Shown here: positions 12,498 through 63,482 of the stretch, one piece after another
Position numbering within the stretch: position 1 is the first letter of the stretch
How the letters are laid out: every line of letters begins with the position of its first letter
NCBI GenBank assembly: GCA_031261085.1
Contig: JAISKB010000026.1
Coordinates: forward strand, 18,517 to 82,516
Direction: 5' to 3'
DNA: 64,000 nt
Source: Christensenellaceae bacterium
GTDB lineage: Bacteria; Bacillota; Clostridia; Christensenellales; CAG-138
Made by a program: the position numbers and the translations under genes
The notes under the pieces: model-generated
Databases searched by the model: none
What the model saw: only the letters and a program-made list of their open reading frames with translations
Told to the model about the DNA's origin: nothing

Positions 12498-12520
12498 AAG
12501 TTGAATTGAATACCGTTTGC

Positions 12521-12620
12521 CTTATCAAGAGTGGTGGAGGGGTAGGCCCTGTGAAGCCACAGCAACCTGTTTTGTAACAAGGTGCTAATTCCTGAGCGTT
12601 ATCGCAAAGATGAGGGAAGC
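12521..12620 (+). ncRNA. SAM-I (S-box) riboswitch
   Basis: The leader shows the S-box core in order: CTTATCAAGAG at the P1 5' side, GGTGGAGGG, GGCCCTGTGAAGCCACAGCAACC (the GAAGCC..GCAACC core), an AAGGTGCTAATTCC segment, and AAAGATGAG closing P1 (CTTATC pairs with GATGAG). S-box RNAs bind S-adenosylmethionine and turn off downstream genes. Its target is metK, the SAM synthetase, giving direct product feedback. Confidence 0.95.
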
Positions 12621-14000: not shown

Positions 14001-15122
<1,122 letters not shown>

Positions 15123-15503
15123 ACTCTTGGCTCTGGCGGCGAGCATAAAAGCGGCTGCCGCCTCGCGCGAGTGGGAGCGATACCCAATGCGCATTACGGC
15201 AGGTCTCCACACTGCCGCACCGCGAGCCTTGCGGTTAAAATAGGCCTCCTTCTTTGTCGTATGCGCCCACATGCTGTGGAGTGCGAGCCCACCGTAAATT
15301 ATATATTCATCATAGCAGAAGCGAAAAATGCTGTCAATTGCGGGGCAAAGGCAGGGCTGTTGGCGCGGCTTTGCCCGCGCCCTGTGTGCGAAACGTATAT
15401 GTTTTTGCCGTATTTTTGGAATAACGCCCTTTTCTCGGGGCGCTATTTGCGTTATACTGAAGCAAATCGCCATACCGCGAGAATAACCTTAAAGGAGCAG
15501 GCC

Positions 15504-48320: not shown

Positions 48321-49610
48321 CTACCCTAAAATCAGCTTTTTGGCATATTCCGCCTCGGCATAGGCCTGCTCTATATCGAGGGTGGTAAAGCCGCCGTCCT
48401 CATATAGCACCCTGCCCTGCACCATGGTGAGGCGCACGTTTGCGCCGGTCGCGCTGTACACCACCGCGCTGATGGGGTCATACTGCGGCAGCGTAGAAGG
48501 CGTATGCATATCGAGCAGGATCAAATCCGCCTGCATACCCACGGCGGCCTGCCCCACATCGGCGCGTCCCTGCGCCTTGGCGCCGTTTACCGTGGCCATC
48601 TTTAGCGCATCGTAGGCCGAAACCGCGCAAGGGTCGCCGGTGGTGCCCTTTGCCAGCAGGGCGGCCAGCTTAATCTCTTCAAATAAATCGTGCGTGTTGT
48701 TGGAGCAGCACCCGTCGGTGCCCAAGCTTATGTTTATGCCCGCCGCCCGCATCGCGGTTATGTTGGCTATGCCGCTGCCCAGCTTCAGGTTGCTCACGGG
48801 GCAATGCGCCGCGTGCACGCCCTTTTCGGCCAGCAGCGCCCTATCCTTTGGGGTTAGCCACACGCAGTGCGCGGCCAGGGCCCGCCCTTCAAACACGCCG
48901 TACCCGGCCAGCAGCGCGGCGGGCGTTTTGCCATAGCGCGCCACGCACGCGGCGTGCTCCTTTTCGGTTTCGCTCAGGTGTACCTGCAACCCCACGCCCC
49001 GGCTCTGCGCGAGCGCCGCCGCCCATTCCCACACGGCGGGGCAGGAGGTATATTCCGCGTGGATGGCTACCTCGGCCAGTATGCGCCCCTCCCCCGCGCC
49101 GTGATATTCCTGTATCAGGCGGAAGGTCTCCTGCGCGGCGCGATCCTGCGGCGGGTTCCAGGCGCCTTGCGCGGCCGTGGCGGCGTTGCACAGCGATGCG
49201 CGTATGCCGACCTCCAGCGCCAATTGCGCGGCGGCGGGCTGATAAAAGTACATATCGCTAAGGCTGGTGGTGCCGGTGGAAAGCATCTCGGCAAAGCCCA
49301 GCCGCACCCCGGCCAGCACCGCGCGCTCCGTAAGCCTGGCCTCGGCGGGGAACACCTTTGTAAACAGCCAGGGCTGCAGCGCATAGTCATCGGCATAGCC
49401 GCGCAGCACGCACATGGCGGTGTGCGCGTGGGTGTTGATAAGCCCCGGCATCAATATGCGGTTTTCGCACGCTATAACGCGGGCCGCCGCGCGCGCCTCC
49501 TGCCCCATATAGGCGATGCGCCCGCCCTGTATGCCCACATGGCCGTGGAACACGGGGGCGGCATCCACCATGGTGAGCACGGTGGCGTTTTGGAATAGAA
49601 TATCGTACAT
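48321..49610 (-). CDS. mtaD: 5-methylthioadenosine/S-adenosylhomocysteine deaminase
   Basis: 429-residue amidohydrolase. The metal-binding NTHAHTAM motif is near residue 59, VHLSETEKEHA and LAAHCVWLTP supply later His ligands, and GTDGCCSNNTHDLF has the catalytic Asp. It deaminates SAH, MTA or adenosine to the inosyl derivatives. The ATG at 49610 begins the usual MYDILFQNATVL of the family. It is 10 bases after punA, so SAM-derived nucleosides can be deaminated and then phosphorolysed by adjacent enzymes. SsnA in this window is its paralogue. Confidence 0.9.
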   Translation of the reverse strand: MYDILFQNATVLTMVDAAPVFHGHVGIQGGRIAYMGQEARAAARVIACENRILMPGLINTHAHTAMCVLRGYADDYALQPWLFTKVFPAEARLTERAVLAGVRLGFAEMLSTGTTSLSDMYFYQPAAAQLALEVGIRASLCNAATAAQGAWNPPQDRAAQETFRLIQEYHGAGEGRILAEVAIHAEYTSCPAVWEWAAALAQSRGVGLQVHLSETEKEHAACVARYGKTPAALLAGYGVFEGRALAAHCVWLTPKDRALLAEKGVHAAHCPVSNLKLGSGIANITAMRAAGINISLGTDGCCSNNTHDLFEEIKLAALLAKGTTGDPCAVSAYDALKMATVNGAKAQGRADVGQAAVGMQADLILLDMHTPSTLPQYDPISAVVYSATGANVRLTMVQGRVLYEDGGFTTLDIEQAYAEAEYAKKLILG

Positions 49611-49620
49611 CCCGGCCCCC

Positions 49621-50442
49621 TTATATTGCCGCCACAAATGCGGTCATAAGCCGTTCAAACCGCGCGCCGGCCTTTGCGGCGGCGGCAAGCACTTCCTCGC
49701 CGGATAGCGGGGCATCCAATACCCCCGCCGCCATATTGGTCACCAGCGACACCCCCAATATCTTCATGCCGCAGTGGTTGGCCGCAATGGCCTCGGGCAC
49801 GGTGCTCATGCCCACCGCATCCCCGCCCAGCGCGCGTATGGCGCGTATTTCGGCGGGCGTTTCGTACATGGGCCCGGTCATATAAAAATATACGCCCTCC
49901 GCCACCGGCTCCCCCTGTTCCTGGGCGACGCGCGCAAACAGCGCCCGCCAATCCGGGTCGAACACGGTGCACATATCGGGGAAGCGCGGGCCGAATTCTT
50001 CGAGGTTGGGGCCCATCAGCGGGTTATCCAGCGTGAATTTGATATAATCCTTGATGACCATGAGCTGCCCGCCCGAGAGCGCAAGGTTCACGCCCCCCGC
50101 CGCGTTGGTGACGATCAGCTTTTCTACCCCCAAAAGCTTGGCCACCCGCACCGGATAGGCCGCCTCCTGCATGCTGTGCCCCTCGTATACATGCAGCCGG
50201 CCCTGCATCATCAGCACGCGCTTGCCGCCCAGCATCCCGGCCACAAACCGGCCCTTATGCCCTATGGCCGTGCTGGCTTTAAAATGCGGTATCTGCGCAT
50301 AGGGTATGTAGATGGGCGTTTCCATCCGCTCCGCCAGGCCGCCCAGCCCGCTGCCCAGTATCATCAGCAATTCGGGGTGAAAATCGCCCAGCTTATTTTG
50401 AATATAGTCGGCGCTCTCACGGTATTGTTGCAAGGTGTACAT
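49621..50442 (-). CDS. punA: purine-nucleoside phosphorylase
   Basis: 273-residue trimeric-type PNP that splits inosine, guanosine and deoxy forms with phosphate. ILGSGLGGLAERM holds the phosphate-binding Ser, GRLHVYEGHS the catalytic His/Glu, NAAGGVN the base-contact region, and MSTVPEAIAANHCGMKILGV the C-terminal signature. First gene of a punA-mtaD pair. Its deoxyribose-1-phosphate product can feed DeoC at 62.8 kb after isomerisation; no phosphopentomutase is seen here. Confidence 0.94.
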   Translation of the reverse strand: MYTLQQYRESADYIQNKLGDFHPELLMILGSGLGGLAERMETPIYIPYAQIPHFKASTAIGHKGRFVAGMLGGKRVLMMQGRLHVYEGHSMQEAAYPVRVAKLLGVEKLIVTNAAGGVNLALSGGQLMVIKDYIKFTLDNPLMGPNLEEFGPRFPDMCTVFDPDWRALFARVAQEQGEPVAEGVYFYMTGPMYETPAEIRAIRALGGDAVGMSTVPEAIAANHCGMKILGVSLVTNMAAGVLDAPLSGEEVLAAAAKAGARFERLMTAFVAAI

Positions 50443-50524
50443 GCCGGTGCTCCTCCGTTTGGTTTTTGTATTTTGATATTTCTATCATACATGATTTGCG
50501 CCCCGCGGGCAATATGGCGCGCGC

Positions 50525-50553
50525 TTGCGCTGTGGGCGGTTTCGTGGGATAAT
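50525..50553 (+). promoter_or_regulatory. ahcY: probable ahcY promoter
   Basis: TTGCGC (50525-50530), 17-bp spacer, GATAAT (50548-50553), about 37 bases ahead of the start codon. Confidence 0.5.
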
Positions 50554-50589
50554 AGCTCGAGAATAAGCATCAATTGGGAGGGTGAGGGC

Positions 50590-51825
50590 ATGAGCACCAT
50601 ACGCGATGCATCGTTGGCCCCTTTGGGGCAAAAGCGCATAGACTGGGTGAAGGATTTTATGCCCGTGCTGGGCGGCATAGAGCGCGCGTTTGCGCGGGAG
50701 CAGCCCTTACACGGCCTGCGCATAGCGCTGAGCATACATTTAGAGGCCAAAACGGCTTACCTCGCCCTGGTGCTGCAAGGGGGCGGCGCGCAGGTATGCG
50801 CCACCGGCAGCAACCCGCTCTCCACCAAGGATGACATTTGCGCCGCGCTCGCGGCCCAAGGGGTGGAGGTGCACGCCTGGTTTGGCGCCACGCAAGAAGA
50901 ATATTCGGAGCATATACGCCGCACGCTGGAGTTTTGCCCGCATATCATCATAGATGACGGCGGCGACCTTGTGGCCATGCTGATTGGCAGCCACCCACAA
51001 TATGCAAAAGACCTGATAGGCGGCTGTGAGGAGACCACCACCGGCGTACACCGTTTGCGGGGCCTGCACCGGGCCGGCAAGCTCCCCTTCCCGATGATCG
51101 CCGTGAACGACGCTTCCTCCAAGCGCCTGTTCGACAACCATCATGGCACCGGCCAATCGGTGTGGGACGCCATACTTTCGGCCACCAACAACATGGTATC
51201 CGGCCGCACGGTGGTGGTGGCGGGCTATGGCCACTGCGGCAGCGGCATCGCAAAGCGGGGGCAGGGCTTGGGCGCGCAGGTAATCATCACCGAGGTGGAC
51301 CCGCACCGCGCGCTGACCGCCGCGATGGATGGCTTCCGCGTGCTGCGCATGGAGGAAGCCGCACCGCTGGGCGATATTTTTATCACCGCGACCGGCTGTA
51401 AGGATGTGATTACCCGCCGTCATTTTGAAGCGATGCGGCACAACGCCATACTCGCCAACGCGGGGCATTTCGATGTGGAAATCAATAAAAACGAGCTGCG
51501 CGCGCTCTGCTCGCGGGTAGAAACCCGCAAGCCCTTCATAGAGGGCTACCGCCTGCGGGATGGCCGTGTGCTCAATGTGCTGGCCGATGGGCGGCTGGTC
51601 AACGTGGTGGCGGGCAACGGGCACCCCGCCGATATTATGGATATGTCCTTTGCGCTGCAGGCGCTGTGCGCGCGGTATTTGGCGCGGCAGCCGCTGGAGC
51701 CGGGGCTATATGAGGTGCCCCCGGCGATAGACCGCGAGGTAGCGCTTTTGAAGGCCGCCGCGCTGGGGCTGGGGCTGGATGCGCTAACGCCTGCGCAGCA
51801 GGCCTATTTGGAGGGGGATATATAA
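50590..51825 (+). CDS. ahcY: adenosylhomocysteinase
   Basis: 411-residue S-adenosylhomocysteine hydrolase, NAD-dependent, splitting SAH into adenosine and homocysteine. Family motifs are SIHLEAKTAYLALVL, the GGDL stretch with IIIDDGGDLVAML, NDASSKRLFDNHHGTGQS, the NAD loop GYGHCGSGIAKRGQGLGAQV near residue 211, and NAGHFDVEI with its active His. It is a short form lacking the C-terminal YRY tail. The start has GGAGGGTGAGGG upstream. Its stop overlaps the next start (TAATG). Confidence 0.92.
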   Translation: MSTIRDASLAPLGQKRIDWVKDFMPVLGGIERAFAREQPLHGLRIALSIHLEAKTAYLALVLQGGGAQVCATGSNPLSTKDDICAALAAQGVEVHAWFGATQEEYSEHIRRTLEFCPHIIIDDGGDLVAMLIGSHPQYAKDLIGGCEETTTGVHRLRGLHRAGKLPFPMIAVNDASSKRLFDNHHGTGQSVWDAILSATNNMVSGRTVVVAGYGHCGSGIAKRGQGLGAQVIITEVDPHRALTAAMDGFRVLRMEEAAPLGDIFITATGCKDVITRRHFEAMRHNAILANAGHFDVEINKNELRALCSRVETRKPFIEGYRLRDGRVLNVLADGRLVNVVAGNGHPADIMDMSFALQALCARYLARQPLEPGLYEVPPAIDREVALLKAAALGLGLDALTPAQQAYLEGDI

Positions 51826-52230: not shown

Positions 52231-53424
52231 TTACACATCGTGGCGCTTGGGCGCCTTGGCTTCCAATTCCTTCAGCTTGGCGGAAGGATTTTTAACCTTC
52301 GCCAAAAATATCATGGCCGCGATGATATAGGGCTTGTAAGAGGCTTGCTTGTAGAGCGGGTTGCGGTAGCGGTCGAATACGCTGGCCGCCACTTCGCCGG
52401 CTTCGCAGCTCACATCGGTGATGTCGGCGGGCAGGCAGTGCAGGTACATGGCCTTGCCGCCTTTGGTGCGCGCCATCATCTCCTCGGTGCACTCCCAATC
52501 CTTATGCTCGGCGTTCTGCGCGAGCAAGCGCTTTTCGAGCGCCTTGATGCCATCGAAATCGCCGTTGCCATACAGCTCGGTGCGCTCTTCCATCGCCTTA
52601 AAGGGGGCCCAGCTCTTGGGATATACCACATCCGCATCCGCAAACGCTTCTTGCATGGAGTGGGTGATTTCGAACTTGCCGCCCTGCTCGGCCGCGTTCT
52701 TTTTGGCTACCTCCACAACCTCATCCATCACCTCGTAGCCCTCGGGGTAAGCCAGCGTCACATCCATGCCCAGTCGGGTCATAAGGCCTATGATGCCCTG
52801 CGGTACCGATAGCGGCTTGCCGTAGCTGGGGCTGTAGGCCCAGGTCATGGCTATCTTTTTGCCCTTTAGGTTTTCGACGCCGCCATACAGGTTGATGAGA
52901 TGCAGCGCATCGGCCATGGCCTGCGTGGGGTGGTCGATATCGCACTGGAGGTTGACCAGCGTGGGCTTTTGCTCCAGCACATCGTCTTCGTTGCCCTGCT
53001 TTACGGATTGCACAACCTCGTGCATGTAGGTATTGCCCTTGCCTATATACATATCATCGCGTATGCCGATGACATCGGCCATGAAGGAGATCATATTGGC
53101 GGTTTCGCGCACGGTTTCACCATGGGCGATTTGGCTTTTGCCCTCGTCCAAGTCCTGCACCTCGAGGCCCAGCAGGTTGCAGGCCGAGGCGAACGAGAAG
53201 CGGGTGCGGGTAGAATTATCGCGGAATAGGCTGATGCCCAGGCCGCTGTCGAATATTTTGGCGGAGATGTTGTTCTCGCGCAGGTAGCGCAGCGCATCCG
53301 CCACGGTAAACACGGCCTCAAGCTCCTCGCGGGTCTTTTCCCAGGTGAGGAAGAAGTCGCCTTCGTACATGTTGCCATAGTGCAGCTTGTCGAGCGCGTC
53401 GGTATACTTTTTTAGGTTGCTCAT
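52231..53424 (-). CDS. ygeW: knotted carbamoyltransferase YgeW
   Basis: 397-residue carbamoyltransferase of the YgeW family, related to ornithine and aspartate carbamoyltransferases but with a different specificity. The carbamoyl-phosphate loop FRDNSTRTRFSFASACNLLG is at about residues 66-85, GKSQIAHGETVRETANM and LQCDIDHPTQAMADALHL follow, and HCLPAD is near the C-terminus. Family members occur with ygeY, ssnA, ygfK and xdhD in purine breakdown. It is last in the minus-strand operon, 25 bases after ygeY. Confidence 0.93.
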   Translation of the reverse strand: MSNLKKYTDALDKLHYGNMYEGDFFLTWEKTREELEAVFTVADALRYLRENNISAKIFDSGLGISLFRDNSTRTRFSFASACNLLGLEVQDLDEGKSQIAHGETVRETANMISFMADVIGIRDDMYIGKGNTYMHEVVQSVKQGNEDDVLEQKPTLVNLQCDIDHPTQAMADALHLINLYGGVENLKGKKIAMTWAYSPSYGKPLSVPQGIIGLMTRLGMDVTLAYPEGYEVMDEVVEVAKKNAAEQGGKFEITHSMQEAFADADVVYPKSWAPFKAMEERTELYGNGDFDGIKALEKRLLAQNAEHKDWECTEEMMARTKGGKAMYLHCLPADITDVSCEAGEVAASVFDRYRNPLYKQASYKPYIIAAMIFLAKVKNPSAKLKELEAKAPKRHDV

Positions 53425-53449: not shown

Positions 53450-54802
53450 TTATTTGTTCACCGCGCCCGCGCGGAATTGGCACGAATCTTCGCCGTCCTT
53501 GCCCTTATACAGGCCGGGAACCGCCGCGTATACGGCGGCGCAGCGCACAAGGTCTTCCTTCCAGATAATCTCGTTGGGGGCGTGCGCCTGCGACTCGGCG
53601 CCGGGGCCAAAGCCCACGCAGGGTATGCCGTAGCGGCCCTGTATGGCCACGCCGTTGGTCGAAAAAGTCCACTTATCGGTTAAGGGGCGGTTGCGCAGGT
53701 GCAGGGAACCGGGGTTGCCCACGCGCTTTTCGCCATAGAGCGCCTTGTGCGCATCCACCAGTGCCTGCACATGCGGCGCGGTCTCCTTGTTTATCCAGGT
53801 GGGGAAGTAGCACTCGGTTTCGTATACCAAACCCGTCCACGCGGGGCGGTCGTACATATACATGGTGACCTCGGCGCCATATTGCTTGCAGGCGGGTAAA
53901 TCCGCGATTTCCTGCAGGCAGGATTCCCACGTTTCGCCGGCGGTCATGCGGCGATCCAGCGAGATGGAGCAGGAATCCGCCACGGCGCAGCGGGAGGGGG
54001 AGGTGAAGAAAATCTGCGAGGTGGTTACGGTGCCGCGGCCCAAAAAGCGCGCGTCCTCATAGTGCTCCGGGTTAAACTTCGGGTCGAGCATCTTGGCCAG
54101 GCCCTTTATGGCGTCGCCCGCTTCGTAGCCGTTTTCGTTGAGCGCCTTCACTTCTTTTAAAATATCCGCCATCTTGTAGATGGCGTTGTCGCCCCGCTCG
54201 GGCGCGGAGCCATGGCAGGATATGCCCTTAACATCCACGCGAATCTCCATGCGGCCGCGGTGCCCGCGGTAAATGCCGCCATCGGTCGGCTCGGTGGAAA
54301 TTACAAATTCCGGCGTGAGGCCGTCTTTTTGGTGTATATACTGCCAGCACAGGCCATCGCAATCCTCTTCTTGCACGGTGGCCGTCACCAGCACGGTTAT
54401 ATCATCGGGGATGAGCGAAAGGTCCTTCATAATCTTTGCGCCATATACGGCGGATACGATGCCGCCCTCCTGGTCGGAGCCGCCGCGCCCGCCTATCTCA
54501 TCGTCGTTTTCGTAGCCCTTATATGGGTCGAACTTCCAGTTGGATAGGTTGCCCACGCCCACGGTATCGATATGGCCATCGTAGGCGATAAGCCGGGGGC
54601 CGTGGCCCATATAGCCCAGCGCGTTGCCCTGCGGGTCGATTTCGGCCCGGTCGAAGCCCAGCTTTTTCATCTCTTCTATGGTGCGCTTAATAACGCCCTC
54701 CTCCTCGCAGCTCTCGCTGGGGATGGCGATAAGGTCGCGCAGGAAACGGGTCATTTGGGGCAAATAGCCTTGCGCCGCTTTGTTGATTGCATCGAAGTCC
54801 AT
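53450..54802 (-). CDS. ygeY: YgeY family selenium metabolism-linked hydrolase
   Basis: 450-residue zinc-dependent M20 peptidase-like enzyme. [14 protein letters not shown] holds the first metal His/Asp pair, [18 protein letters not shown] and [14 protein letters not shown] supply further ligands and the catalytic Glu, and [17 protein letters not shown] closes the site. In this family the reaction is hydrolysis of an amide in the purine-degradation route; it is annotated as selenium-linked because of its constant neighbours. It sits 39 bases after the regulator gene. Confidence 0.93.
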
Positions 54803-54841: not shown

Positions 54842-55483
54842 TTAGACGTTATCGTTGTTGGCGTCCAGGTAGGAATAGAGCGTATATTTGCTTATGCCAA
54901 AATACTTGGCTATTTTATCGCCGCTTTTGGTGATGAGCATGGCCCCCGCTTCGTTTAAAAACGCGATGGCCTTTACCTTTTCATCCTTGTTCATCATGGC
55001 CACCGGCTTGCCGATAATCCGCACGGATTGCTCCAGCAGCTCATCGAGAAGCTCGTTCACGTTGGTGGGTATGTGCTCGGGCTCGCTGCCTATGCCGCCC
55101 GTTTGCACGATGGCGTTTACCACGGACTGCGCCATCATGAGGTCGGTAAGGTCGTAGTTGATGCAGAATATGCCGCTGACGGTGCCGTCTTCATCTTTGA
55201 TATATACGGAGCTGGATCGGAGAATGCGCCCATCCCGCGTTTGGGTCAGATAGTTGTAGTGATCCGGCAGGTCGCGCCGGCCCTTGCGCACGGCCTCCAG
55301 CACGATGTGGCTGGGCCCCGCCTTGGCGTCGCGCCGCGACACATGCCCATTCTCTATGCAGGCAATGGTGTTCTCCGGGTCGTCACCCGCAAGGTCGTGT
55401 ATAACCACCTCGCAGTTTTTACCAAATTGCAGCGCAAGCGCGTTTGCAACGCGCGTGAGCAGTTCCAGCGTGTCCCTTCGCAT
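54842..55483 (-). CDS. YheO-like PAS/HTH transcriptional regulator
   Basis: 213-residue regulator with an N-terminal YheO-like PAS sensor (about residues 1-130, including FGKNCEVVIHDLAGDDPENT and GIFCINYDLTDLMMAQ) and a C-terminal helix-turn-helix (about 165-213, IAFLNEAGAMLITKSGDKIA, then YFGISKYTLYSYLD). Relatives include DauR, which responds to a small metabolite. The ATG at 55483 has GAGGAGG upstream. It is first in regulator-ygeY-ygeW and divergent from ssnA, so it is the obvious candidate for control of both purine operons. Confidence 0.87.
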   Translation of the reverse strand: MRRDTLELLTRVANALALQFGKNCEVVIHDLAGDDPENTIACIENGHVSRRDAKAGPSHIVLEAVRKGRRDLPDHYNYLTQTRDGRILRSSSVYIKDEDGTVSGIFCINYDLTDLMMAQSVVNAIVQTGGIGSEPEHIPTNVNELLDELLEQSVRIIGKPVAMMNKDEKVKAIAFLNEAGAMLITKSGDKIAKYFGISKYTLYSYLDANNDNV

Positions 55484-55560
55484 TACGACCTCCTCATCAG
55501 CCCCGAATAGGTGGGGAGGCATAGTTGCATACGCCAAACGCCCACAGGTTTTCCATTTCT

Positions 55561-55588
55561 ATGATACCACATCCGCACTGAATTTCAA
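55561..55588 (-). promoter_or_regulatory. promoter of regulator-ygeY-ygeW operon
   Basis: Minus strand TTGAAA (55583-55588), 16-bp spacer, TATCAT (55561-55566). Confidence 0.65.
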
Positions 55589-55649
55589 TAGCTCTCCAAA
55601 AAGTTTTTCGTTTTAGCTAAAAATTTTTTTATATATTTATGAATGCCTA

Positions 55650-55679
55650 TTGAAAAGCCTGCTGCGGCTATGATAAAAT
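55650..55679 (+). promoter_or_regulatory. promoter of ssnA-ygfK-xdh-deoC operon
   Basis: TTGAAA (55650-55655), 18-bp spacer, TAAAAT (55674-55679). Transcription should start near 55686, putting a leader of about 165 bases before ssnA. Confidence 0.6.
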
Positions 55680-55682
55680 AAA

Positions 55683-55774
55683 GACGGTCAAACATGTATC
55701 CAAACATGGCCGTAAGGGAGTGCTTTGCGCGCGGGCTATCACAACTGTCAAACTGTGATGGCGCGCGTTTTTTC
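55683..55774 (+). ncRNA. candidate cis-regulatory leader RNA with terminator, upstream of ssnA
   Basis: The start of the transcript can form a small hairpin region (ACGG..CCGT closing AAACATGTATCCAAACATG, which contains AAACATG twice). It is followed by AAGGGAGTGC and a strong intrinsic terminator: GCGCGCGGGCTATCACA pairs with TGTGATGGCGCGC and is followed by six T, ending 80 bases before the ssnA start. A terminator between promoter and gene implies regulated read-through. It does not match a riboswitch class I know; a protein-dependent antiterminator or regulator-binding leader is the alternative. Confidence 0.5.
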
Positions 55775-55853
55775 TTAACTATACTATCTCTTTATTATTG
55801 CGCATATACGCATCTTTCAGCACACATACAAACCGCAAGGAGGTAACGCAGCT

Positions 55854-57185
55854 ATGTATCTAATTGCAAACGGCATCGCAATCACGCGGGATGGCGCCAT
55901 GCCCTATGTAAAAAACGGCGGTGTCGCGGTGGAAGGCACCACCATCATCGAGGTAAACGAAACCGATGCGCTAAAGGCCAAGTACCCCCAGGCAGAATAC
56001 ATCGATGCGCGGGGCATGGTGATTATGCCGGCGTTCATCAACGCGCATTCGCATATATACAGCGCGCTGGCGCGGGGGCTTAGCATAAAGGGGCATAACC
56101 CCACCAACTTTTACGAAATACTCAACGGCATGTGGTGGAAGCTGGACCGCAGCCTCACCCTGGAGGATACCCGCCGCAGCGCCTACACCACCTATATCGA
56201 CTGCATCAAAACCGGCTGCACTACCCTGTTTGACCACCACGCGAGCTATGGCGAAATAGAGGGCAGCCTGCTTGCCATCGAAGAGGTGGCAAAGGAGCTG
56301 GGCGTGCGCACCTGCCTGTGCTACGAGGTGAGCGACCGCGACGGCGAGGCCAAGTGCGACGCCGCCATACGCGAAAACGGCGATTTTATCCGCCGCTGCG
56401 AGCAGCGGAAGGATCCTATGGTAAAGGCCATGTTCGGCGGCCACGCGCTGTTCACTCTATCCGATAAAACCTTCGAAAAGATGGTGAGGGAGAACGATGG
56501 CAAAACCGGCTACCACATACATGTGGCCGAGGGGTTAAACGACGTATACGATTCCCTGCGCAAATATGGCACCCGCAGCGTAAACCGCCTGCTCCAGCAT
56601 GGCATATTGGGCCCCAAAACGCTGCTGGGCCACTGCATACACATCACCCCCGCCGAAATGGACATCATAAAAGAAACCGACACCATGGTGGTTAACAATC
56701 CCGAATCCAACATGGGCAACGCGGTGGGCTGTTCCCCCATACTGCCCATGCTCGCCAAGGGCATTTTGGTGGGTATGGGCACCGATGCCTACACCTTCGA
56801 TATGCTGGAGAGCTTAAAGGCGGGCCTCACCATACAGCGGCACAACGCCTGCCTGCCCAACGTGGCCTGGGGCGAGGTGACGGATATGCTGTTTAAAAAC
56901 AACCGCCAAATCGCGGGGCGCTACTTCCCGCTGGAGCTGGGCGTGCTAAAATCCGGCGCGGCGGCCGATGTAATCGTGATGGATTACAAGCCATTTACCC
57001 CGCTTAACGCCGGCAATATCGATGGCCATATGATATTTGGCATGACGGGCCGCCAGTGCGAAACCACCATGTGCAACGGCCGCCTGCTTATGCGGGATAG
57101 AAAGCTCATAGGCATCGATGAAGAAGCCATAAACGCCCGCACGATGGAAGCCGCCCAAAAGCTTTGGGCGCGCCTGAATGGCTAA
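55854..57185 (+). CDS. ssnA: putative aminohydrolase SsnA
   Basis: 443-residue amidohydrolase of the SsnA family. Metal motifs: NAHSHIYSALARG near residue 60, GYHIHVAEG, LLGHCIHITP, and MGTDAYTFDMLES with the catalytic Asp. In E. coli and gut anaerobes ssnA belongs to the purine-catabolic cluster, where it is likely a deaminase of a purine or ring-opened product; the exact substrate is not settled. The ATG at 55854 has AAGGAGG upstream. First gene of ssnA-ygfK-xdh-deoC; 34 bases to ygfK. Confidence 0.93.
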   Translation: MYLIANGIAITRDGAMPYVKNGGVAVEGTTIIEVNETDALKAKYPQAEYIDARGMVIMPAFINAHSHIYSALARGLSIKGHNPTNFYEILNGMWWKLDRSLTLEDTRRSAYTTYIDCIKTGCTTLFDHHASYGEIEGSLLAIEEVAKELGVRTCLCYEVSDRDGEAKCDAAIRENGDFIRRCEQRKDPMVKAMFGGHALFTLSDKTFEKMVRENDGKTGYHIHVAEGLNDVYDSLRKYGTRSVNRLLQHGILGPKTLLGHCIHITPAEMDIIKETDTMVVNNPESNMGNAVGCSPILPMLAKGILVGMGTDAYTFDMLESLKAGLTIQRHNACLPNVAWGEVTDMLFKNNRQIAGRYFPLELGVLKSGAAADVIVMDYKPFTPLNAGNIDGHMIFGMTGRQCETTMCNGRLLMRDRKLIGIDEEAINARTMEAAQKLWARLNG

Positions 57186-57219: not shown

Positions 57220-60186
57220 ATGAGCGAACGCATGACCCCCATACCCTTTGCGCAACTGATGACTTGGCTGTTTGCCGAACACGATAAAACCGGCGCCGCA
57301 TTTGGCGTCACCGCAAAATTCATCAATCCCAGCGCAGGCAAAACGCTGCCCCTCTTTTGCGAAAAGCTCGAAACACCCCTGGGGCCCGCGGCGGGCCCCC
57401 ACACGCAGCTCGCGCAAAACATCATCGCGGCCTATTATGCGGGCAGCCGCTTTTTCGAATTAAAGACCGTGCAAAAGATGGACGGCGCCGAGCTTGCGGC
57501 CTGCATTGCCCGGCCCTGCATATCGGCCGAGGATGAAGGCTACAACTGCGAATGGTCCACCGAGCTGTATGTGCCGCAGGCCTTCGATGAATATGTGAAG
57601 GCGTGGTTTGCCCTGCGGTTTATCGCGCATAAATGGGGGTTGGGCGCGCCAAACGGCTTTGCGTTCAACATCAGCGTGGGATACGACTTAGAAGGCATTC
57701 AAACGCCCAAGATGCAGGCCTTCATCGATGGCATGATCGATGCTTCCGCCACACCCATCTTTAAGGAATGCACAAAGGCGCTTTGCGCGCTGTTCCCCGA
57801 GGACGCCGACTTTGTGCGCGCCACCCCGGCGCGCATCACCAGCGGGGTCACGGTTTCGACCCTGCACGGCTGCCCGCCCGACGAAATCGAGGCCATCGCC
57901 AGCTACCTGCTCACCCAAAAAAAGCTCAATACCTTTGTAAAATGCAACCCCACCATACTCGGGTACGAGTGGTCCCGCGCCCGCTTGGATGCGCTGGGCT
58001 ACGATTATTTATCCTTCGACCGCCATCACTTTGAAGAGGATTTACAATATGCCGATGCGGTGCCCATGTTCCGCCGGCTGCAGAGCCTGGCGCAAAGCGA
58101 GGGGCTGGAATTTGGCCTAAAGCTCTCCAACACCTTCCCGGTGGAGGTGAAGGCGGGGGAGCTGCCCAGCGAAGAGATGTATATGAGCGGCCGGGCGGTA
58201 TTCCCGCTGACCATAGAGATGGCGCGCCGCCTGAGCGCGGAATTTAAGGGCGCGCTCCGGCTTTCCTATTCCGGCGGGGCGGATTATTTCAACATCGAGG
58301 AACTGTTCCGCGCGGGCATATGGCCCATCACCGTGGCCACCACCCTGCTCAAGCCGGGCGGCTACAACCGCATCGCGCAGCTGGCCGCCAAGCTGGTAGG
58401 GACACCTGACTTTAAACCCTTTGCGGGGGTGGATTATACTGCCGTTGCCGCGCTAAGCGACGCCACGCGAACCAGCGCGCACTACCGCAAGGCCATAAAG
58501 CCCTTGCCCAGCCGCAAGCTGCCGCAAAGGGTGCCCCTGTTTGACTGCTTTACCGCGCCCTGCCAGGGCGGCTGCCCCATCGGGCAGGATATACCCGAAT
58601 ATATAGAGCTTTGCGGCAAAGGCGAATACCTTGCCGCGCTCGAGCTCATACTTCAAAAAAACCCGCTGCCATTTATCACGGGCACCATCTGCGCGCACCG
58701 CTGTATGGATACCTGCACCCGCAATTTTTACGAGGAATCGGTGCAAATTCGCGCCACCAAGCTGCAGGCGGCACAGCACGCGTATGACGCGCTGCTGAAA
58801 AATCTGCAGCCGCCCGCCAAAAAATCCGGCCCCAAGGCTGCCATCATTGGCGGTGGGCCGGCCGGCATTGCCGCGGCCTACTTCCTCGCCTGCGCGGGGG
58901 TGCCGGTCACGGTGTTCGAAAAGCAGGCGCGGCCCGGCGGCATCGTGCGCAATGTGATACCCGAATTTCGCATAGCGCACAGCGCCATCGATAAGGATGT
59001 GGAGCTGGCCCGCCGTATGGGCGCGGAATTCATCTGCGGGCAGAAGGCGCCCGGTTTGGCCGAGCTTAAGGCGCAGGGGTATGAATATTTCCTGCTCGCG
59101 GTGGGCGCCGAAAAGCCGAGCGCGCTTTCCATCCCCGGCAACGTCATGAACGTGATCGAATTCTTATACGCGTGCAAAAACGCGCCCGATACGCTTTCGC
59201 CGGGCAGGCATGTGGCCATAGTAGGCGGCGGCAACACCGCCATGGATGCCGCGCGCGCGGCAAAGCGGCTGCCGGGTGTAGAACGGGTGACGCTGGTTTA
59301 CCGCCGCACCAAAAAATATATGCCCGCCGATGCCGAGGAACTGGATTTGGCGATTGCCGACGGCGTGGAGTTTGCCGAGCTGCTATCCCCCGCCAGGCAG
59401 GAGAACGGCGTGCTGCACTGCCACAAGGTGGCGCTGGGCGAGCCGGATGAAAGCGGCCGCCGCCGCCCCGTAGAAACCGGCGAAACAGCGGAGGTCCCCG
59501 CCGATATCGTAATCGCCGCGCTGGGCGAAAAGCTGGATGAAAAGGTGTTTGCCGCCTATGGCGTAACGCTTAACGAAAAGGGGCGCGCGCCCTTCCAAAC
59601 CGGCGCGGTATTCGTTGCGGGGGATGCCCTGCGCGGGCCCGCCACCGTGGTGGAGGCCATCGCCGACGCGGCCGCGTTTGCGAAAGCCGTGCTGGGGCAG
59701 CCGCACGCCTATGACCTGCCCCCCAACGCCGCCCCCGCTTACGAAGCGCTGCTGGCCAAAAAAGGCGTGCTGGCGCACCCTTGCCCGCGCGAAGCCGAGC
59801 GCTGCCTGGGCTGCAACACCGTGTGCGAAACCTGTGTGGGCGTTTGCCCCAACCGCGCCAATGTGGCGGTTTCGGCAGCGGGGCATGCCATGCGTCAAAT
59901 CGTGCATGTGGATTATATGTGCAACGAGTGCGGCAACTGCGCCACCTTCTGCCCCTATTCCAGCCGGCCCTACAAAGATAAGTTCACGCTCTTCGCCAAT
60001 GCGGAGGATTTTGCCGATAGCGAAAACGACGGCTTTATGGTGCTAGACGCAGCAGCCCCCGCCGTGCGCGTGCGCTTAAACGGCGAGGAGGCGAGCTATG
60101 ACCTGAGCAAGAGCAACCCCGCGCTAAACGAGGATGCGGCGCTGCTGATGCGCACCGTTTTGAAGGATTATGCCTATTTGCTGTAG
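57220..60186 (+). CDS. ygfK: YgfK, putative FAD/iron-sulfur oxidoreductase (annotated selenate reductase subunit)
   Basis: 988-residue multidomain flavoprotein. The N-terminal 400 residues include a DHOD/PreA-like FMN region (TLHGCPPDEIEAIASYLL, FVKCNPTILGYEW). From about 440, a GltD-like part starts with cysteines in CFTAPCQGGCPIGQDIPEYI and CAHRCMDTCTR. FAD and NAD(P) sites follow: GGGPAGIAAAYFLA and GGGNTAMDAARAAKRLPG. Near the C-terminus two [4Fe-4S] motifs occur, CLGCNTVCETCVGVCP and CNECGNCATFCPY. It probably passes electrons between NAD(P)H and ferredoxin or the xanthine dehydrogenase; the selenate reductase name is historical. It sits between ssnA and the dehydrogenase gene. Confidence 0.93.
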   Translation: MSERMTPIPFAQLMTWLFAEHDKTGAAFGVTAKFINPSAGKTLPLFCEKLETPLGPAAGPHTQLAQNIIAAYYAGSRFFELKTVQKMDGAELAACIARPCISAEDEGYNCEWSTELYVPQAFDEYVKAWFALRFIAHKWGLGAPNGFAFNISVGYDLEGIQTPKMQAFIDGMIDASATPIFKECTKALCALFPEDADFVRATPARITSGVTVSTLHGCPPDEIEAIASYLLTQKKLNTFVKCNPTILGYEWSRARLDALGYDYLSFDRHHFEEDLQYADAVPMFRRLQSLAQSEGLEFGLKLSNTFPVEVKAGELPSEEMYMSGRAVFPLTIEMARRLSAEFKGALRLSYSGGADYFNIEELFRAGIWPITVATTLLKPGGYNRIAQLAAKLVGTPDFKPFAGVDYTAVAALSDATRTSAHYRKAIKPLPSRKLPQRVPLFDCFTAPCQGGCPIGQDIPEYIELCGKGEYLAALELILQKNPLPFITGTICAHRCMDTCTRNFYEESVQIRATKLQAAQHAYDALLKNLQPPAKKSGPKAAIIGGGPAGIAAAYFLACAGVPVTVFEKQARPGGIVRNVIPEFRIAHSAIDKDVELARRMGAEFICGQKAPGLAELKAQGYEYFLLAVGAEKPSALSIPGNVMNVIEFLYACKNAPDTLSPGRHVAIVGGGNTAMDAARAAKRLPGVERVTLVYRRTKKYMPADAEELDLAIADGVEFAELLSPARQENGVLHCHKVALGEPDESGRRRPVETGETAEVPADIVIAALGEKLDEKVFAAYGVTLNEKGRAPFQTGAVFVAGDALRGPATVVEAIADAAAFAKAVLGQPHAYDLPPNAAPAYEALLAKKGVLAHPCPREAERCLGCNTVCETCVGVCPNRANVAVSAAGHAMRQIVHVDYMCNECGNCATFCPYSSRPYKDKFTLFANAEDFADSENDGFMVLDAAAPAVRVRLNGEEASYDLSKSNPALNEDAALLMRTVLKDYAYLL

Positions 60187-60275: not shown

Positions 60276-62828
60276 ATGGCGACTTTCACCGTAAACGGCC
60301 AAGCCGTTACTGTGGAAAAAAATCAAAACCTGCTGCGCTACTTGCGGGATGAGCTTCGGCTCACCTCGGTAAAAGACGGCTGCGCCGAGGGCGCTTGCGG
60401 CACCTGCACCATACTCATCGAGGGCAAGGCGACCAAGTGCTGCGTGCAGCAGACCGACCGTATGCAGGGCAAAACCCTGTGTACCGTAGAGGGCCTTTCC
60501 GATTTTGAAAAGGAAGTTTACACCTATGCGTTTGGCGAGGCTGGCGCGGTGCAATGCGGCTTTTGCATACCCGGCATGGTGCTGTGCGCCAAGGCCCTGC
60601 TCGCGCAAAACCCCGCCCCCACGCACGAGGAGATTCAGCACGCGCTGCGCAACAATATCTGTCGCTGCACCGGCTATGTGAAGATCATAAGGGCCGTGCA
60701 GATTGCCACGGAATTGTTCCAAAGGGGTGAGGTGCCCGCCGCGCCCGATGATTGGAAGGTGGGCGCGCGCGCACACCGCATCGATGTGCGCGAAAAGGTG
60801 CTGGGCTATGGCGAGTATACCGATGATATTTATATGGAGGGCATGCTGCACGCCAGCGCGGTGCGCGCCGCGTACCCACGGGCGCGGGTGCTGGCCATCG
60901 ATACAGGGGCGGCCAAAGCGCTGCCCGGCGTAGCGGGCGTGTTTACCGCCGCCGATATCCCCGGGCTGGTGATGGTGGGCCACTTAAAGCGCGATTGGTT
61001 CGCGCTGGTGCCGGTGGGGGAGGTCACGCATTATTTGGGGGATGCCATCTGCCTGGTGGCCGCTGAAACCCCCGAGATTTTAGCGCAGGCCAAAGCGCTG
61101 GTGCGGGTGGAATATGAGGTGCTCAAGCCGGTGCAGTCCACCGAGGAATCCAGCGCGCAGGACGCGCCGCAGCTGCACCCGGGCGGCAACCTTTTGGCGC
61201 ACAAGCATGTGAGCCGGGGCGACGCGGAGGGGGCCATTGCCCAATCCAGGCATGTGCTGCGGGGCAGCTTCCACACGCCCCATACCGAGCACGCTTTTTT
61301 GGAGCCCGAGTGCGCCGTGGCCTTCCCCAAAGGGGAGGGCATCATGCTGTATACCTCCGATCAGGGCACCTACGATACGCAGCACGAAACCGCGCCCATG
61401 CTGGGGCTTGCCAAAGAGCAGGTGATGGTGGAAAACAAGCTGGTGGGCGGCGGCTTTGGCGGCAAGGAGGACGTGACCGTGCAGCACCATGCCGCGCTGT
61501 GCGCGCTGCTGACCGGGCGGCCCGTTAAATGCAAGCTCACCCGTGCCGAAAGCCTGCTGATACACCCCAAGCGTCACCCCATGGATATGGACTTTACGCT
61601 GGGCTGCGACGAAAACGGCATCATACAGGGCGTGAAGGCAACGGTCACCACGGATACCGGCGCATATGCCAGCCTGGGCGGGCCTGTTTTGGAGCGCGCC
61701 TGCACCCACGCCGCCGGGCCCTATAACTACCAAAATTTCGAAATAGACGGCTATGCCTGGTATACCAACAACCCGCCCGCCGGGGCCTACCGCGGGTTTG
61801 GCGTAACACAAACCTGCTTCGCCATAGAGAGCCTGCTCAACGAGGCCGCCGAAAAGATAGGCATCTCCCCGTGGGAAATACGCTATCGCAACGCGATCCG
61901 CCCGGGGCAGGTGCTGCCCAACGGGCAGATTGTGGATAGCTCCACCGGCCTGGTAGAAACGCTGGAGGCGGTAAAAGGTGCTTACGAAAGCGCCAGGTTC
62001 GCGGGCATCGCCTGCGCGATGAAGAATGCCGGCGTGGGCGTGGGCATACCCGATACCGGCCGCGTGCGGCTGCGCATACAAAACGGGCAGGTAGAAATCC
62101 ATGCCGGGGGGAGCTGCATAGGCCAGGGCCTGGGCACCGTGCTGGTGCAAATCGTGGCCGAAGCCGCCGGCCTTGGGCGGGAGCAGATCGTTTATATCCC
62201 CGCCAACACCGTTACCGCGCCGGATTCCGGCACCACCTCGGGCAGCCGCCATACGCTGATTACTGGCGAGGCCACCCGCCGCGCCTGCCTGCTGTTTAAC
62301 GATGCGCGGCATGGCCGCAGCCTGGCCGAAATGGACGGCGAGGAATATTATGGCTACTACCTGGCTAAAACCGATGCGCTGGGCAGCGACAAGCCCAACC
62401 CCGTGAGCCATGTGGCCTATGGCTATGCTACGCAGGTCGTCATACTGGATGACGAGGGCAGGCTCAGCCGCATCGTCGCCGCGCACGATGTGGGCAAGGC
62501 CATCAATCCGCTTTCGGTAGAGGGGCAAATCGAGGGCGGCGTGGTCATGAGCATGGGGTTTGCGCTCACCGAGCAATATCCGCTGGCGGATTGCAAGCCT
62601 ACCGCCAAATATGGTACACTGGGGCTGTTCAAAGCCAATATGATCCCCAAGATAGATTCCCTTATTGTGGAGCGCCCGGGGTTGTATCTTGCCTACGGGG
62701 CAATCGGCATAGGCGAGATTACCTCCATACCCACCGCGCCCGCCATTGCCGAGGCATATTACCGCTTTGACGGCAAACGCCGCTATGCGCTGCCGCTTGC
62801 CGATACGCCCTACGCAACGAAGAAATGA
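60276..62828 (+). CDS. xdhD: selenium-dependent xanthine dehydrogenase (Fe-S plus Mo domains)
   Basis: 850-residue molybdenum hydroxylase. Residues about 1-150 hold two [2Fe-2S] clusters: CAEGACGTCTIL with a later CC pair, and CGFCIPGMVLCAK with NNICRCTGYVKI. The rest is the molybdopterin-binding part: GGGFGGKEDVTVQHHA, GAYRGFGVTQTCFAIESLL, SCIGQGLGTVLVQI, and GTTSGSRHTLITGEA. Length and fused layout fit the selenium-dependent molybdenum hydroxylase group, with no FAD domain. Selenium would be a labile ligand at Mo, supplied through SelD, and not selenocysteine. An FAD subunit and the maturation genes yqeB/yqeC are not visible in this window. Confidence 0.92.
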   Translation: MATFTVNGQAVTVEKNQNLLRYLRDELRLTSVKDGCAEGACGTCTILIEGKATKCCVQQTDRMQGKTLCTVEGLSDFEKEVYTYAFGEAGAVQCGFCIPGMVLCAKALLAQNPAPTHEEIQHALRNNICRCTGYVKIIRAVQIATELFQRGEVPAAPDDWKVGARAHRIDVREKVLGYGEYTDDIYMEGMLHASAVRAAYPRARVLAIDTGAAKALPGVAGVFTAADIPGLVMVGHLKRDWFALVPVGEVTHYLGDAICLVAAETPEILAQAKALVRVEYEVLKPVQSTEESSAQDAPQLHPGGNLLAHKHVSRGDAEGAIAQSRHVLRGSFHTPHTEHAFLEPECAVAFPKGEGIMLYTSDQGTYDTQHETAPMLGLAKEQVMVENKLVGGGFGGKEDVTVQHHAALCALLTGRPVKCKLTRAESLLIHPKRHPMDMDFTLGCDENGIIQGVKATVTTDTGAYASLGGPVLERACTHAAGPYNYQNFEIDGYAWYTNNPPAGAYRGFGVTQTCFAIESLLNEAAEKIGISPWEIRYRNAIRPGQVLPNGQIVDSSTGLVETLEAVKGAYESARFAGIACAMKNAGVGVGIPDTGRVRLRIQNGQVEIHAGGSCIGQGLGTVLVQIVAEAAGLGREQIVYIPANTVTAPDSGTTSGSRHTLITGEATRRACLLFNDARHGRSLAEMDGEEYYGYYLAKTDALGSDKPNPVSHVAYGYATQVVILDDEGRLSRIVAAHDVGKAINPLSVEGQIEGGVVMSMGFALTEQYPLADCKPTAKYGTLGLFKANMIPKIDSLIVERPGLYLAYGAIGIGEITSIPTAPAIAEAYYRFDGKRRYALPLADTPYATKK

Positions 62829-62837
62829 GGTAAAACG

Positions 62838-63482
62838 ATGCAAAACTTAAACCGTTATATCGACCATACCCTGCTTAAGGCCGACGCCACCCCCGCGCAA
62901 ATCGAAACGCTCTGCGCGGAAGCGCTGCAATATCATTTTGCCAGCGTGTGCGTAAACAGCTGCTATGTGCCGCTGTGCGCAAAGCTGCTAAAGGGCAGCG
63001 ACGTGGCGGTATGCTGCGTGGCAGGCTTCCCCTTGGGCGCCATGCTTACGCAGGGCAAAGCCGCCGAAACCGCGCAGGCCGTGCAAAACGGCGCGCAGGA
63101 GGTGGATATGGTCATCAACGTGGGCCGGGCGAAGGCGGGCGACTGGGCCTATGTTGAGGAGGATATCCGTGCCGTGGTGCAAGCCGCGGGCAGCGCGCAC
63201 GTTAAGGTCATCATCGAGGCGTGCTTGCTTACCGATGCCGAAAAGGTGCAGGCCTGCGAATGTGCCGTGCGCGCGGGTGCGGCATTTGTAAAAACCAGCA
63301 CCGGTTTTTCGACCGGCGGGGCGACGGCGGCGGATGTCGCGCTCATGCGCCGCACCGTGGGCCCAAGCATCGGCGTAAAAGCCGCCGGCGGCGTGCGCAC
63401 GCGCGAGGATGCGCTGGCCATGCTGCAAGCGGGCGCCAACCGTTTGGGCGCCAGCGCCGGCATAGCGATTATACAGGAGTAG
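62838..63482 (+). CDS. deoC: deoxyribose-phosphate aldolase
   Basis: 214-residue class I aldolase that splits 2-deoxyribose-5-phosphate into glyceraldehyde-3-phosphate and acetaldehyde. [17 protein letters not shown] starts it, [12 protein letters not shown] is the middle motif, [11 protein letters not shown] has the active-site Lys, and [14 protein letters not shown] holds the Schiff-base Lys (about residue 152). It follows xdh by 9 bases with AGG before it, so it is part of the purine operon, linking base breakdown with use of the sugar of deoxynucleosides. Confidence 0.95.

Follow-up and report, generated by a model that had tools for sequence, protein, structure and literature searches.

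ssnA RNA, a candidate cis-regulatory RNA catalogued by Rfam as RF03031, reportedly originates from Weinberg et al. (2017). A literature search, mostly outside subscription journals, returned no ligand reported for this RNA. Protein-dependent antitermination offers a second point of comparison: the RAT-type sites of LicT and BglG are short hairpins that overlap the 5′ arm of a terminator. A third is the NMT1 motif, or xanthine riboswitch, which binds xanthine and urate (PMC7373994). Like the leader described here, the NMT1 motif is a small hairpin of two helices, has a conserved internal bulge and is associated with genes for oxidised purines; in contrast to what is predicted for this leader, it is an OFF switch, likely acts on translation initiation and is, in that account, reported only in Proteobacteria (PMC7373994). 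The genes behind ssnA RNA belong to the reductive urate pathway described in 2025, in which XdhD reduces urate to yanthine, YgfK and SsnA convert yanthine to ureidomethyl-hydantoin, and HyuA, YgeW, YgeY and YgeX catalyze later steps (PMC12507026). The word "riboswitch" does not occur in the main text of that paper.

The leader lies in a 64,000-nucleotide stretch of DNA from a Christensenellaceae bacterium, hereafter the window. NCBIfam models confirmed all four genes of the ssnA-ygfK-selenium-dependent xanthine dehydrogenase-deoC operon that had been proposed in an earlier note on this DNA (Table 1). The opposite strand carries a divergent regulator and two further genes of the urate pathway. 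At 48321-49637 (-), an amidohydrolase has its best scores, below cut-off, with models of N-ethylammeline chlorohydrolase. By eye, the frames beside it at 49621-50442 (-) and 49774-51825 (+) resemble purine nucleoside phosphorylase and adenosylhomocysteinase. The window also contains malK-I RNA (RF03069), a catalogued cis-regulatory RNA, at 15117-15299 (-) with 111.9 bits, and a SAM riboswitch (RF00162) at 12519-12616 (+) with 80 bits.

Table 1. Features of the ssnA leader and the adjacent genes, in window coordinates
Feature	Position	Strand	Basis
ygeW, knotted carbamoyltransferase, urate pathway	52231..53424	-	TIGR03316, 772 bits
ygeY, urate-pathway hydrolase	53450..54802	-	TIGR03526, 625 bits
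Divergent regulator, YheO-like PAS_6 and HTH_22 domains	54842..55537	-	Pfam
Sigma-70-like promoter, TTGAAA-18-TAAAAT	55650..55679	+	Sequence; 10/12 consensus match
5′ hairpin ACGGUC/GGCCGU, bearing the doubled AAACATG	55684..55713	+	Computed pairs
Two-helix conserved core of ssnA RNA	55707..55738	+	RF03031 match, R1 match, covariation
Intrinsic terminator, hairpin 55729-55768 and U-tract to 55773	55729..55773	+	-22.8 kcal/mol
ssnA, aminohydrolase SsnA	55854..57185	+	NF005540, 649 bits (cut-off 444)
ygfK, reductase subunit	57220..60186	+	TIGR03315, 1307 bits (cut-off 835)
Selenium-dependent xanthine dehydrogenase family protein	60276..62828	+	TIGR03311, 1288 bits (cut-off 830)
deoC	62838..63482	+	TIGR00126, 289 bits (cut-off 117)

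In a permissive Rfam scan of the 377 bases at 55484-55860, ssnA RNA matched at 55700-55747 with 36.5 bits (E = 2e-8), 0.8 bits under the gathering score of 37.3; a scan of the whole window at the gathering threshold missed it. Up to E = 10, the permissive scan returned four further hits, all at chance level and none of them a riboswitch; the NMT1, purine and Moco models with which the earlier note had proposed a comparison gave no match. We also built a covariance model, R1, from 53 diverse copies out of 117 eligible, leaving out the window. R1 found the leader at 55695-55750 (45.5 bits, E = 6e-11), and the next hit in the window scored 10.5 bits. Across the window's genome the next hit scored 14.9 bits (E = 1.5), leaving this locus as the sole credible one. 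Both helices consist of standard pairs (9 of 9, two being G-U), and the leader stands upstream of an ssnA confirmed by NF005540. In sequence, helices and position before ssnA, the leader is the same as ssnA RNA; it differs in having C rather than U at 55711, which replaces a U-G pair with C-G. On these sequence comparisons, the leader matches a family that is already catalogued, and not the unassigned class for which it had been taken. For this family the analysis yields a predicted ON mechanism and a short list of possible ligands.

The core comprises helix P1 (five pairs, 55707-55711/55734-55738), an internal loop of 8 bases, GUAAGGGA (55712-55719), facing the single G55733, and helix P2 (four pairs, 55720-55723/55729-55732) with a loop of five bases (55724-55728). 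Many core columns had been set in advance by the search pattern and script, which leaves only the free columns to inform on covariation and invariance; among the 53 relatives, 19 columns are invariant, of which the window keeps 18, the exception being 55711, where C still pairs with G. In the 14 copies reached via the SsnA protein, which were recognised with a pattern that fixed some of these bases, loop bases 55712, 55714-55717 and 55719 (G, A, A, G, G, A) and the opposing G55733 are constant. The P1 pair 55708/55737, free in the DNA search pattern yet part of Rfam's model, forms in 106 of 106 distinct sequences, the window included, using five standard pair types and no mispair. Similarly, the inner pair of P2 varies between C-G, U-A and U-G. 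In the alignment of the 53 relatives, two pairs of P1 and one of P2 covary, and the covariation score lies above all 500 shuffles and all slid registers; counting only cells changed on both sides, the register slid by +3 beats the structure (18 vs 12). The pairs that never vary (three of five in P1, two of four in P2) are uninformative on covariation, and in 21 of the 53 relatives the outermost pair of P1 does not form. The earlier note had proposed this covariation check and had held that a lack of conservation over 55683-55720 would speak against a leader RNA. Conservation is indeed lacking over the first 24 bases of that segment, but from 55707 on the columns are conserved.

Within the window's family, 28 of 103 genomes have an ssnA RNA match. 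In 27 it lies above the Rfam cut-off; the one below it is the window's own. In an order sample, 9 of 297 genomes matched, one of them (L039) judged to be chance; in a class sample, 6 of 391 matched and, minus five chance hits (L040-L044), the window's own genome alone remains. These six loci were dropped as lacking the conserved 3′ half, GCGCACGGGC. Five of the six still score 19.9-24.5 bits with R1, and weak R1 scores are therefore not evidence. A pattern scan of named genomes yielded at least 118 loci, many titled Oscillospiraceae. Seven pattern loci were dropped because the stretch compared contained no pathway gene: L074, L086 and L091, to which R1 gave 28.3, 15.7 and 29.7 bits, respectively, and L084, L090, L122 and L130, in which it found nothing up to E = 1. 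Both viral hits were dropped as well. One locus (L082) was kept though it has no window-like gene nearby; it passes the Rfam cut-off with 45.8 bits. Even within the family the RNA is not universal: the core is present at 14 of the 30 SsnA loci that were retrieved by protein, and the DNA fetched for the SsnA-like loci L014-L019 and L021-L030 yielded no ssnA RNA.

The gene next downstream is ssnA in 115 of 123 leaders, a count that takes in both copies of two tandem pairs, at a spacing of 29-279 bases (median 101); three leaders run off the end of the DNA and five precede something else. ygfK follows ssnA in all 75 loci with enough DNA. In 10 of the 28 genomes the gene for the selenium-dependent xanthine dehydrogenase is found up to about 9 kb downstream on the same strand, and in the other 18 it is elsewhere, numbers in which contig breaks could hide some cases; the RNA thus follows ssnA-ygfK rather than the dehydrogenase. 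The window's genome has 22 matches to the model of this dehydrogenase, the second-highest count among the 28 genomes searched (range 1-25); most are weak and likely represent other molybdenum hydroxylases. Ten frames downstream of ygfK at ten loci included three hydantoinases, the rest being mostly apparently unrelated.

At several loci the RNA precedes other genes. In L082 it stands before a hydantoinase (TIGR02033). In two Intestinimonas loci, L216 (8535-8591, -) and L219 (4568-4623, -), it stands before an NAD-binding and gltA-like pair, which we take to resemble the electron-transfer genes of Nfn, and the terminator pairs with the 5′ half of the core; by eye, ygeY-, ygeW- and carbamate-kinase-like frames are near this pair. 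In L155 (after 2882, +) and L141, the latter with a frame that appears garbled by eye, the RNA precedes a DUF6198 membrane protein. A DUF6198/YczE-like protein directly behind the RNA was also seen in L222 and, as in L155, is near a xanthine-permease-like gene. This membrane protein is a candidate transporter of the pathway. Two Gemmiger genomes have tandem ssnA RNAs before ssnA, in L220 (3631-3855, +) and L221 (9107-9329, -). Both copies of L220 pass the Rfam cut-off, each tandem copy appears by eye to be followed by a T-run, and the first copies have A and U where P1 otherwise has an invariant G and C, by eye a compensating change.

The promoter, the doubled AAACATG, the terminator with its six T and an ssnA about 80 bases on, all described in the earlier note, are present in the sequence. 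The -35 and -10 elements (TTGAAA at 55650-55655, TAAAAT at 55674-55679) are separated by 18 nt. By itself this match is at chance level (3 found vs 2.5 expected from shuffles of the region). Among 122 leaders, 52% have a promoter-like pair in the 80 nt that precede the core, vs 11% of mononucleotide shuffles, and 35 of 64 such pairs fall in one 5-base bin. The AAACATG copies lie at 55690-55696 and 55702-55708; such a doubling occurs in one of 123 leaders, namely the window's own, and the conserved mark of these leaders is the core instead. The 5′ hairpin occupies 55708-55713 and therefore excludes P1. Its predicted probability is 0.91 in the prefix ending at 55725 and 0.09-0.36 in prefixes ending at 55733-55760. 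Because the P1 strand shows some pairing with upstream bases in just 43 of 121 leaders, the 5′ hairpin does not count among the conserved parts. The whole leader folds better than 200 of 200 dinucleotide shuffles (-34.3 vs a mean of -24.2, z = -3.36). The T-run of the terminator spans 55768-55773; the ATG of ssnA follows 80 bases further on and 115 bases from the end of the core. This hairpin was absent from the output of a consensus terminator scan of the region, probably owing to its loop of more than 8 bases.

The core's 3′ half and the terminator's 5′ arm have bases 55729-55738 in common. Since the terminator's 5′ arm starts at 55729, inside P2, core and terminator are mutually exclusive. 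The window leader thus has an aptamer-like core that excludes its expression platform, one of the features expected of a riboswitch. We classified 123 leaders by terminator, bearing in mind that they are related sequences whose counts are not independent events: 42 use the 3′ half of the core, 7 its 5′ half and 1 is otherwise arranged, while in 73 the terminator stands apart. Core and terminator therefore overlap in 49, the window among them. The 3′-half type accounts for 23 of the 27 distinct leaders in the window's family. Across the 42 leaders of this type, base 22, in P2, varies together with its terminator partner, with which it is paired in 33 (A-U 12, G-C 19, G-U 2). The classification limits hairpin span and still misplaces some leaders (L002, with a short U-tract, and L160); it supersedes earlier ones that in part contained over-long hairpins.

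We next consider the predicted sign of control. When the core was forced, predicted terminator formation fell by more than 0.3 in 54 of 120 leaders and rose by more than 0.3 in 3. A first calculation (47 falls and 4 rises in 120) rested in part on over-long hairpins and is superseded. The falls comprised 32 of 42 leaders of the 3′-half type, 3 of 5 of the 5′-half type, 19 of 72 with the terminator apart and 0 of 1 otherwise arranged. All three rises were in the apart group, with none in the 3′-half, 5′-half or otherwise arranged groups, and 50 of 72 apart leaders changed by at most 0.3. The modelled direction of the effect agrees across leader designs, the sign for the apart group being only weakly predicted. 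In a control with mononucleotide-shuffled cores, 14 of the 49 overlapping leaders beat all 20 shuffles and shuffles frequently gave equally stable terminators, a mildly favourable outcome; for the window's terminator, 1 of 20 shuffled cores equalled the native stability. An earlier classification placed 61 leaders in the apart group. Of these, 43 lent themselves to a search for an antiterminator and an outer helix, P0, and in 37 the two elements have at least 3 bases in common. In these leaders P0, antiterminator and terminator are thus predicted to compete.

Based on these data, we predict that the ssnA RNA leader works as a metabolite-sensing ON riboswitch through transcription antitermination and that its ligand is likely a reductive-urate-pathway purine, with a probability of about two in three. 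Structure prediction and comparison thus lend support to conditional read-through in the leader and to a purine-pathway signal, both suggested in the earlier note. As long as no ligand is bound, two local hairpins, the 5′ one and a second at 55709-55732, would hold the core strands apart, the terminator would form and ssnA-ygfK-xdh-deoC would be off. Ligand would trap the core before the 3′ arm of the terminator emerges, and the polymerase would read through. Provided that ligand binds the core, the leader would be a kinetic ON switch. In the folding model, the ligand-free terminator has a probability of 0.93-0.95 when just complete (0.95 at 55774) and 0.74 in the longest prefix. While the terminator is still incomplete (prefixes 55738-55760), forming the core is predicted to cost 6.4-8.4 kcal/mol; once it is complete, the cost is about 20 kcal/mol. 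A cost of 6.4-8.4 kcal/mol is within reach of micromolar ligand binding. At equilibrium the window's core is improbable (P1 about 0.001), so a ligand would have to act during transcription.

An alternative that we consider unlikely is that an antiterminator protein, LicT/BglG- or ANTAR-like, binds the core and would stabilise it against the terminator. At about 32 nt the core could be a protein site, and it shares with RAT-type sites a hairpin of similar size that overlaps the 5′ arm of the terminator. Of the 28 searched genomes with ssnA RNA, 18 encode ANTAR domains and only 3 encode CAT-RBD. Moreover, CAT-RBD (PF03123), the cognate RNA-binding domain of the LicT/BglG type, and ANTAR (PF03861), the two antiterminator domain types covered, had no match in the window's genome, which is estimated to be 95.5% complete. 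This weakens the protein alternative, which the earlier note had also raised. As for the adjacent regulator, it bears a predicted DNA-binding HTH, and only 30 of 102 loci have a divergent homologue at a distance of up to 600 nt; a transcription factor of this kind may provide a further level of control.

It is unlikely, too, though less so for the apart leaders, that the same RNA is an OFF switch or responds to another signal, be it a later product, xanthine, nitrogen, or selenium or molybdenum. The bases shared with the antiterminator in the apart leaders belong to the 3′ strand of P0, which is readable as OFF control if P0 is in the bound form. One copy of the RNA has a gene like that of molybdenum-cofactor cytidylyltransferase, below the model cut-off, further downstream, and two other copies are followed by the electron-transfer genes mentioned above. 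Against this, the overlap of core and terminator, as in the window, gives only ON control if the core is the bound form, and forcing the core rarely raised terminator formation. A constitutive or partial ordinary terminator, or a leader-peptide attenuator, is very improbable: a 50-codon open frame from ATG 55694 runs through the window leader and few overlapping terminators beat every shuffled core, but an ATG frame enters the core in 53 of 121 leaders, in mixed frames and in 8 with a Shine-Dalgarno-like sequence, leader-peptide attenuation was rejected as the reading frame is not conserved among the 121, and a plain terminator needs none of the constant loop bases and opposing G of the 14 SsnA-derived copies, some of which the pattern fixed.

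For the ON riboswitch, gene context suggests yanthine (2,8-dioxopurine) as the first candidate ligand and urate as the second, because YgfK/SsnA and the linked dehydrogenase act on these compounds. Pairing ssnA RNA with the urate pathway yields a short ligand list (yanthine, urate, xanthine and ring-opened hydantoins) together with the predicted ON sign. A more specific proposal, which we put forward tentatively and regard as doubtful, is that in Oscillospiraceae and Christensenella-like bacteria ssnA RNA is a yanthine riboswitch controlling, as an ON switch, a dispersed regulon for urate degradation. That regulon would include ssnA-ygfK, the hydantoinase, the electron-transfer genes and, as a possible transporter, the DUF6198 membrane protein. 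Yanthine itself has only recently been assigned a place in the metabolism of bacteria. If the link between ssnA RNA and the urate pathway is right, it could yield a sensor for urate or yanthine, would suggest that DUF6198, an uncharacterised family of membrane proteins, likely belongs to the pathway, and would show how many anaerobes switch on the breakdown of urate.
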